NCBI RefSeq assembly: GCF_019236175.1
Contig: NZ_JAFAJM010000023.1
Location: 1-64,000 of the forward strand
From: Chryseobacterium sp.
Lineage (GTDB): Bacteria > Bacteroidota > Bacteroidia > Flavobacteriales > Weeksellaceae
Length of the DNA: 64,000 nucleotides
Reading direction: 5' to 3'
The position numbers were made by a program, and so were the translations under genes. How positions within the stretch are numbered: position 1 is the first letter of the stretch; each line of letters opens with the position of its first letter. Shown here in pieces: positions 21,610 to 33,715 of this stretch. The notes under the pieces were generated by a model. It did not search any database. It had not been told where the DNA came from and saw only the letters and a list, made by a program, of their open reading frames with translations.

Positions 21610-21927
21610 TGTTTATTCTTTATACAAAAGTAGTAAAAACAGTTCTGGTATTTTACATTTCCCGAATCAATGATTTATTTAACAACAGATCAAATATCTC
21701 TCATTTCACTACAAAAACATCTCTTAAAAGGGAATTAATATCCATTCATTTTATTTCTTTTTAAAAAACAAAACATGTTATTAAAATTTACAACAAAGAA
21801 AATCAATCACAAATAACATGCTAAAAATAAGCAATTTAAACACCCTATTATTTCTCTTTAAAATGAATATTACAAACAGAAAATCAACATATACGTGTGA
21901 TTTTTCTTCAGATTTGGCATAACAAAC

Positions 21928-21944
21928 TGTCATACTTTATGACA
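21928..21944. repeat. Palindrome TGTCATA-CTT-TATGACA (possible activator site)
   Basis: A 7-bp perfect inverted repeat with a 3-bp spacer, about 320 bp upstream of the sigma-54-like promoter. TGTC/GACA arms at that distance are typical of binding sites for sigma-54 enhancer-binding proteins, but no such regulator is encoded in this window. Palindrome seen; function inferred. Confidence 0.4.
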
Positions 21945-22260
21945 ACTGACAAAAATTCAGCAGGTAAAAACATCATCAAAAAATAAATTTTCTTAACATA
22001 AAAATATCTTTTACGCCGAACTTTCCTTGTCAAAAATAAGAGTGGGCAACAATATTATGCAACGCATTATTTATTATTTGTTTTATCAAGTCCAATATAG
22101 AAGTCTTTAAACGATTAACACTTTCACATAATTTTACATTAAAAATAAAAAATACATTAATAAATTTATAATAATATATTAATTTAATGTAAACTTAAAT
22201 TCACCAATAAATGAACTCACACACACCTAATACACTGATATACATCATAATGCTTTACTT

Positions 22261-22276
22261 TGGCACGTGATTTGAA
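22261..22276 (+). promoter_or_regulatory. Sigma-54-like (-24/-12) promoter
   Basis: TGGCACG-TGAT-TTGAA with a T before it. The -24 part is a perfect TTGGCACG-type box, and GG is separated by exactly 10 bases from the -12 dinucleotide, which is GA instead of the consensus GC. The predicted transcription start near 22287 leaves about 50 bases of leader before the ATG at 22339. Confidence 0.5.
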
Positions 22277-22338
22277 AGTTGTAATATTGCAATTGAAAGA
22301 TTGATAAAAAAAAGTCAAATAATTAAAAATAATACAAA

Positions 22339-22419
22339 ATGGTAACTTATATCGGTATCGCAACTTGTGTAGTAGTGTTCGCATCATATTTCATGACAGT
22401 AAGAAGAGAAAGAAACTAA
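22339..22419 (+). CDS. 26-residue single-pass membrane peptide
   Basis: ATG at 22339, stop TAA at 22417. The product starts MVTYIGIATCVVVFASYF, one hydrophobic helix of about 16 residues, and ends in the strongly positive tail RRERN, which predicts an N-out/C-in inner-membrane peptide. It sits behind a 729-bp non-coding tract with a sigma-54-like promoter and ahead of a hairpin-rich 3' region ending in a terminator, so it has its own transcription unit. No known family recognised. Alternative reading: the ORF is incidental and the transcript is a non-coding RNA of about 320 bases. Confidence 0.55.
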   Translation: MVTYIGIATCVVVFASYFMTVRRERN

Positions 22420-22476
22420 TTCTAAATACAATAAGCCTATAGAGAATCTATACTAATTATATTGTTTTATGTTTTT

Positions 22477-22613
22477 AATCTGATCCTGAAAATCAGATCC
22501 GCTCTTTTACTCATTGGGGTAAAAGGGTCCTAAAAACATAGCAAAAAGATCTTAGTTTCATAACAAATTTTAATATCCAAAAGAAAATCCGGTCATTTGT
22601 CCGGATTTTCTTT
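22477..22613 (+). terminator. Hairpin-rich 3' region ending in a terminator
   Basis: Three stem-loops follow the small ORF: ATCTGAT/ATCAGAT (22476-22498), CTTTTACTC/GGGGTAAAAG (22503-22528) and the terminator AAAGAAAATCCGG/CCGGATTTTCTTT (22580-22613). The last has a T-rich end on the plus strand and would also work on the minus strand. Confidence 0.65.
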
Positions 22614-22720
22614 GTTATTCCCATATTCTTATTTACTGGCCTATCTGTTTATTCTCATTCAGGCAGGTCTTCTTCACCTTGTAAAGCCTTATCTTTGTAC
22701 CTTTAAGAAATTGTATTCTC

Positions 22721-23440
22721 ATGAATCTATACAACCTTATTATTCAGGACAAAGAACAAATACACATCAATGATGTATTCCTTAACGCGACCAATAGAAA
22801 CCTGCTTATCCAGCTGATCAAAGAACACGCTTATGTAAAAGAACTTCAGGAATATGGTCTTCCGGTAAATAATAAGATTCTTCTTCAGGGAAGCTCAGGG
22901 TGCGGAAAAACAATGACCGCAAAAGCTATTGCTCATGCACTGGGTAAAAATATTATCATTTTAAACCTGAGTAATATTGTATCATCACGTATTGGAGAAA
23001 CCTCACAAAATATTAAGATGATCTTCGACAAAGCGGCAAGAGAAAGATCAGTTCTTTTTCTGGATGAGCTCGATCAGATTGGGAAAGCCAGAGGCAGTGA
23101 CGACAAAGATGTGGGAGAAATGCGGAGACTTGTCAATACTCTGATTCAGCTGATCGATTACTATCCTGAAAATGCATTGCTTCTTTGTGCAACCAATCAC
23201 CCAGAGATCATTGATACGGCTTTGCTGAGACGTTTCCAGCTAAAGGTCAATTATGAAATGCCCTCTTCAGAATTTCTGGACACATTCTATGATCAGTTGC
23301 TGAGCCGATTTCCTGACGATCTGAACACTATTGAAAGGAGATACGCCATTTCCTTTGCAGAAGCAAAAGACCATGCGCTTACTTCTGTAAAAGCAGCATT
23401 GATAAGAAAATTGGAAGCTAAAGAAATCTCCCGGTCATGA
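22721..23440 (+). CDS. AAA+ ATPase (FtsH/26S-like AAA module, stand-alone)
   Basis: 239 residues. Walker A at 57-64 (GSSGCGKT), Walker B with Asp115-Glu116 (VLFLDELDQ), sensor-1 region CATNHPEIID and arginine-finger LLRRFQ. The fold is a single AAA module with a short N-terminal helical part. No protease domain or membrane segment is attached, so it is a stand-alone remodelling ATPase of unknown substrate. Its last 4 bp overlap the start of the YggS gene (ATGA), so the two are coupled. Confidence 0.8.
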   Translation: MNLYNLIIQDKEQIHINDVFLNATNRNLLIQLIKEHAYVKELQEYGLPVNNKILLQGSSGCGKTMTAKAIAHALGKNIIILNLSNIVSSRIGETSQNIKMIFDKAARERSVLFLDELDQIGKARGSDDKDVGEMRRLVNTLIQLIDYYPENALLLCATNHPEIIDTALLRRFQLKVNYEMPSSEFLDTFYDQLLSRFPDDLNTIERRYAISFAEAKDHALTSVKAALIRKLEAKEISRS

Positions 23441-33304: not shown

Positions 33305-33715
33305 ACTGATATGACGGCTATCCTTTTGGTTTTACTTTAATAAATTTAAAATATTTTTCCGGATTTTCAATTTTTCTTTTATTCACAGGATTTTTATCTT
33401 CCTCATAGTCATCCTGTACTCATTTTCTATTTTCTAAGGAGCTGTTCCCGCTATCCGCTCCTACTCCTCGCGCCGGAGCTCTTCCCTTTCCGCTGTGGGG
33501 TAACCGCTGCTATCGGGGCTAAAGTCTGTATGGCCTGTACAAATCTACAGAGAACAGATAAAATACAATTGTACTGGAAATAAAAACGCTCGGGTCTTAA
33601 GCTAAAGCCAATGGAGGTTATCTTTTTATTTGAACGGGCTAAAGCCCGTCCCTATTGGCAACAAAAAAAACGGAAGACCTTTCGTCCTCCGTTTTTGCTT
33701 ATAAAAATAATAAGT
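33305..33715. repeat. Non-coding gap with a dispersed-repeat-like element
   Basis: No coding signal. From about 33436 the base composition jumps to GC-rich: CCCGCTATCCGCTCCTACTC, CGCGCCGGAGCTCTTCCC and CCGCTGCTATCGGGGCTAAAG follow one another. Then GCTAAAGCCAATGGAGG and the perfect palindrome ACGGGCT-AA-AGCCCGT (33634-33649) with CCCTATTGG appear. I recall such blocks recurring between genes in Chryseobacterium and related genomes, but cannot confirm copy number from one window. Confidence 0.5.
33663..33696 (-). terminator. Terminator of the S9 peptidase gene
   Basis: ACGGAAGAC and GTCCTCCGT pair with one bulge, followed on the minus strand by T8. Confidence 0.8.

Follow-up and report, generated by a model that had tools for sequence, protein, structure and literature searches.

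The gene described here shares features with several well-known kinds of small bacterial gene. The type I toxins Hok, Ldr, TisB and Fst share its length, its hydrophobic helix and its structured mRNA, and SgrS/SgrT is a dual-function RNA in which a short open reading frame (ORF) and a conserved structured RNA lie on one transcript. Similarly, CydX, KdpF and AcrZ belong to the same length class and have one hydrophobic helix, with charged residues that are few and lie at one end. Cytochrome bd oxidase includes CydX, of 37 residues, as a component (PMC4325964), and AcrZ binds AcrB in its transmembrane part (PMC7267776). Finally, TimP resembles the new peptide in length, in its hydrophobic helix and in having a structured mRNA (PMC7667032).

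The locus was studied within a window of 64,000 nucleotides, the whole stretch of Chryseobacterium sp. DNA that was analysed (contig NZ_JAFAJM010000023.1), where an original prediction had placed an unannotated 26-residue membrane peptide. Unlike CydX and KdpF, this peptide has no Pfam match at threshold and its gene lies outside an oxidase, Kdp or other membrane-complex operon. Unlike the type I toxins, TimP included, it is the product of a single-copy core gene, with no conserved antisense promoter over its ORF and no family match. As in SgrS/SgrT, the ORF and a conserved structured RNA share a transcript, but here the peptide is more widely kept than the RNA. That RNA, a three-way junction in the 3′ untranslated region (UTR), is, like Flavo-1 and other Bacteroidetes RNAs in Rfam, a structured RNA of flavobacterial genomes, although no Rfam 15 family matches the junction locus at the gathering threshold. 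Flavo-1 itself (RF01705) has a match elsewhere in the window, at 33440-33524 (-), which scores 42.9 against a gathering score of 42 bits. The elements of the locus are as follows.

22235-22248 (+): FNR/CRP-like palindromic box CTGATATACATCAT, a putative activator site of TGAT-N4-ATCA shape, near-invariant
22259-22262 (+): -33 element, TTTG; strict -33/-7 pattern in 102 of 117 loci
22282-22289 (+): -7 element, TAATATTG; TAATATTGC in 101 of 115 loci
22339-22419 (+): ORF of the predicted 26-residue single-span membrane protein; in 172 of 173 genomes of the genus, dN/dS ~0.18
22467-22541 (+): three-way-junction RNA (basal stem, arm 1, arm 2); shared fold with compensatory changes
22478-22498 (+): arm 1, ATCTGAT/ATCAGAT; stem sequence differs between clades, pairing kept
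22501-22528 (+): arm 2, GCTCTTTTACTC/GGGTAAAAGGGT; both partners changed in 5 of the 11 consensus pairs
22579-22614 (+): terminator-like hairpin (dG -18.6), then a U-rich tail to ~22619
22721-23440 (+): AAA ATPase gene, near the peptide gene in 111 of 117 loci

The peptide gene and its distribution

The ORF runs from ATG to TAA and encodes MVTYIGIATCVVVFASYFMTVRRERN. The single helix and charged tail that had been proposed were recovered by calculation, as one hydrophobic stretch (Kyte-Doolittle mean of 1.9 over the best 19 residues) with a basic tail, which agrees with the general kind of small single-span membrane proteins, namely coding ORFs of ≤50 residues with one hydrophobic helix. The tail carries a net charge of +1 or +2 in every variant, and net charge is absent N-terminal to the helix. 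Because the basic end is C-terminal, the positive-inside rule points to an N-out/C-in topology, and the C-terminus is probably cytoplasmic. Across the aligned set M1, G6, T9, S16, Y17 and E24 are invariant, and Y4, I5, I7, A8 and T20 nearly so. The conserved small or polar residues G6, T9, S16 and T20 follow one another at intervals of three, seven and four residues; that these, or the invariant G6, T9, S16, Y17 and E24, roughly share one helix face, which would be a packing face, is suggestive only, the periodicity test on conserved residues giving a non-significant p = 0.08.

A profile search found the peptide in 172 of 173 sampled Chryseobacterium genomes, the sole genome without it being 73% complete, and a DNA search with 22230-22630 gave a match in all 59 other same-genus genomes of its sample. 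The carriers in the named genome collection are Chryseobacterium, and neither the other genera of the family nor a broad sample of the order yielded a credible copy. Other genera gave weak profile matches (E 0.01-0.1) that fell within longer genes or in unrelated frames, and DNA matches at two loci from other families (L061 and L062) covered a short AT-rich stretch only, with the related small ORF absent. In the genomes sampled, the gene is thus restricted to the genus Chryseobacterium. No Pfam model matches the peptide at threshold (the sole match was COX14, with E 0.099 and 12.9 bits where the cut-off is 25), no NCBIfam model covers it at threshold, and a literature search, with subscription journals mostly outside its coverage, found no description of the peptide or of its 3′ UTR RNA.

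The reading frame is intact in 117 of 117 loci examined, with 26 residues in 77, 27 in 39 and 25 in one; the differences are whole-codon changes near the C-terminus, and this ORF of 25-27 codons keeps a near-constant distance from its promoter. Changes are concentrated at the third codon position, the entropy being 0.47, 0.22 and 0.84 at positions 1, 2 and 3. From pairwise counts over 102 distinct DNA sequences we obtained pS 0.40, pN 0.097 and dN/dS ~0.18; since related sequences are not independent, this dN/dS is a pooled estimate rather than the outcome of a formal test. Together these values indicate that selection on the peptide is purifying. An alternative frame, from a TTG at 22365, was rejected; its start and C-terminus are variable or absent among relatives.

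The original prediction had proposed dN/dS as a check and held that conserved DNA with a lost frame would favour a non-coding RNA; the outcome was the opposite. An RNA gene carrying an incidental reading frame would account for the strong structure and conservation of the RNA, but the codon-position pattern, the dN/dS and the intact frames run counter to it, as does the survival of the peptide where an arm of the RNA is lost, and no locus among the 117 has a broken frame with an intact RNA. A pure RNA gene is contradicted by this coding signal, and we give it almost no credence. The ORF is conserved beyond chance, given the DNA matches, the profile matches and the dN/dS, and its genus-wide retention, with a conserved folded RNA on the same message, argues for a real core gene rather than a frame open by chance. 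Comparison thus shows the ORF to be a genuine protein-coding gene, of a length at which genes are usually skipped in annotation.

The same distribution bears on whether the peptide might be a type I toxin, damaging the membrane and silenced by an antisense RNA. Its size, its lone hydrophobic helix with a charged tail and its structured mRNA would suit a toxin, but single-copy presence in 172 of 173 genomes would not; furthermore, no copy was found in the plasmid and phage collections searched, no toxin family matches it, and a scan in cis over the ORF and 3′ UTR found no antisense promoter shared across the genus. An antisense promoter match, TTTG-N18-TACATTTG, does occur about 50 nt upstream of the ATG in 21-23 loci (for example L031); it is clade-specific and points upstream, away from the ORF. 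Because of its distribution, its copy number and the lack of a genus-wide antisense promoter, the gene is unlikely to be a type I toxin.

Promoter and upstream box

That the gene has a promoter of its own, as had been proposed, is confirmed by the conservation of its -33 and -7 elements. The arrangement (TTTG, 19 bp, TAATATTG) is of the standard Bacteroidetes type, and the strict pattern keeps a constant distance to the ATG in the 102 loci that have it. The published -7 consensus, TAnnTTTG, lies 4-5 nt before the transcription start (PMC6847099) and resembles the -7 element found here (PMC6847099, PMC9723704). With the start placed 4-5 nt past the -7 box, transcription is predicted to begin at ~22294, which gives a 5′ UTR of ~45 nt. 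The A residues at -3, -12 and -13 before the ATG agree with the published initiation context (PMC6847099), while position -6 is T. A sigma-54 promoter was also considered, as TGGCACG-N4-TTGAA at 22261-22276 resembles a -24/-12 element; this reading was dropped because the stretch varies in relatives (GGAACC.., GATTCC.., GACCGT..) while the -7 box stays.

Further upstream lies the box at 22235-22248, which had not been part of the original prediction. Its TGA.A.AC.TCA positions are essentially invariant in the 115 tabulated loci, 112 of which have 32-33 bp between box and -7 element; the table omits two loci, both of which bear the box and have TAGTTTTG as their -7. TGAT-N4-ATCA is the shape of FNR-type sites, and a site of this type at a fixed promoter distance is as expected of a putative member of a CRP/FNR regulon, although in the half-sites the outer base is not that of the FNR consensus. 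The genome encodes several CRP/FNR-family genes, with eight HTH matches above the Pfam cut-off. Because of this shape and these regulators, an activator of the CRP/FNR class is our best guess for the protein acting at the box, which could belong to a different class of regulator. A genome pattern search for the box gave this site only, a strict motif search of eight genomes found no second promoter-linked copy, and a scan that tolerated mismatches gave mostly coding matches among the loci inspected. Between the SMR transporter gene and the box the window holds ~620 bp of AT-rich intergenic DNA (21610-22230) with no ORF of note.

The 3′ UTR junction and the genes around it

Structured RNA had been expected behind the ORF and is present at 22467-22541; what had not been foreseen was that it forms a covarying three-way junction. 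The fold of 351 nt around it has z = -4.2. The basal stem is TTATGTTTT/AAAACATAA, and the common fold occurs in ~105 of 117 loci, a count of pattern matches that includes a few without arm 2 (for example L059, L129 and L149). In arm 2, the both-sided changes that keep the five pairs are each found in at least one sequence. Arm 1 has been replaced wholesale and yet remains paired (AATCTGA/TCAGATT, CAATCT/AGATTG, GCAGT/ACTGC, AGCCTT/GAGGCT); native partners pair at a mean of -5.4 kcal/mol against -2.3 kcal/mol for swapped ones, a comparison tilted towards the native because the stems were picked by folding each native sequence. In the basal stem, T-A pairs have become C-G pairs in three distinct versions. 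As the MAFFT alignment smeared arm 1, RNAalifold gave arm 2 alone and our RNA model R1 contains arm 2 pairs only, and the pairs of arm 1 and the basal stem were counted separately. R1 matches the window at 22464-22544 and has one match per carrier genome, whereas 73 genomes from 23 other genera gave no match, and the exact arm-2 pattern occurs only at this locus in the genomes searched, its own included. The covariation indicates that the junction RNA is conserved in its own right, and it is a new motif that is not in Rfam.

The peptide is kept and a recognisable junction lost in L039, L114, L115, L141, L142 and L147. The RNA is therefore not obligatory; it can be separated from the peptide, and of the two it is the peptide that is kept more widely. 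In L039, L114, L115 and L147 arm 2 is gone, and an arm-1-like piece and a rearranged AAAACAT/ATGTTTT inverted repeat follow the ORF.

These losses weigh against the idea of a dual-function transcript like that of SgrS/SgrT, in which the junction would be processed into, or act as, a trans-acting small RNA and would matter no less than the peptide. The compensatory changes, the primary sequence kept in arm 2 and the basal stem, the single locus per genome and the terminator close behind are all consistent with such an RNA, but besides the losses there is no identified separate promoter for it, and an element for stability or processing would look identical. We regard a trans-acting RNA of equal importance as conceivable, though rather doubtful.

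The claim that the gene has its own terminator was confirmed in most loci: 81 of 117 have a counterpart of the hairpin with its U-rich tail, at distances that vary little, whereas a stricter terminator scan reported none at the locus. In the window this terminator follows the junction and the next gene starts ~100 nt further on. The peptide gene is monocistronic, and its neighbours are genes for an SMR transporter and an AAA ATPase and a YggS-like gene. The upstream SMR gene is divergent in orientation and absent from some loci. In 110 of the 111 loci that have it nearby, the AAA ATPase gene lies downstream and is co-oriented with the peptide gene, but in the window the terminator separates the two. 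Its best NCBIfam match, the anti-phage ATPase IteA, scores 168 bits where the cut-off is 510, so that only an ATPase domain is shared. Gene order across the 117 loci gave no conserved operon partner that would hint at a complex.

A further gene, which we take to be mepB-like (163 aa), occurs in 24 of 117 loci, further downstream in some. In one group (L056, L058, L060, L148, L167 and others) it comes directly after the junction, 199-208 nt past the peptide ATG, and no terminator was detected between the two. This group would fit a leader or arrest peptide that acts by way of the junction on the expression of a gene downstream. However, the gene is present in just those 24 loci, in the window the terminator and ~100 nt intervene before the next gene, and the full length of the peptide is kept without a downstream partner. 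As most carriers lack a gene that could be led, we consider a leader peptide very unlikely.

Proposed working of the unit and its significance

The reading that we favour, at a probability of about 55%, takes the coding status, promoter, conserved box, RNA structure and genus restriction from comparison between loci, and adds a predicted membrane insertion and topology, a putative class of regulator, a presumed partner and a presumed RNA function: the locus would be a CRP/FNR-controlled core gene for a small inner-membrane protein that tunes a larger partner, with a 3′ UTR RNA that has a role of its own. A housekeeping Bacteroidetes promoter would start the transcript at ~22294, a regulator of the CRP/FNR family at the TGAT-N4-ATCA box would switch transcription, and the transcript of ~330 nt would stop at the terminator. 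Its product would be an inner-membrane protein of 26-27 residues that crosses the membrane once, with the N-terminus out and the basic C-terminal tail in. This peptide would most likely pack against a larger membrane protein or complex and tune or stabilize it (cf. CydX and AcrZ), and modulation of a membrane complex, as first suggested, is plausible. The junction would have a separate, selected role, most likely in mRNA stability or processing, or in release as a regulatory RNA. A more speculative extension is that throughout the genus a single CRP/FNR-controlled transcript serves two functions, a core membrane micro-protein and a junction RNA acting separately on other targets, under one Chryseobacterium-specific switch (for example an oxygen or respiratory one); we hold this to be improbable.

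In summary, comparison between genomes confirms the peptide gene, whose predicted product joins the small single-span membrane proteins. The gene belongs to the core of a large genus that is common in clinical and environmental settings, and it stands outside the family databases searched. All of its control parts are visible, namely an operator-like box, the promoter, the peptide, the structured 3′ UTR and the terminator. Furthermore, it offers a clean case in which the role of an isolated 26-residue membrane protein may be approached without an operon partner as a clue. The junction adds a covarying RNA motif beyond Rfam, and the arrangement of peptide plus RNA is the most interesting point of the locus.
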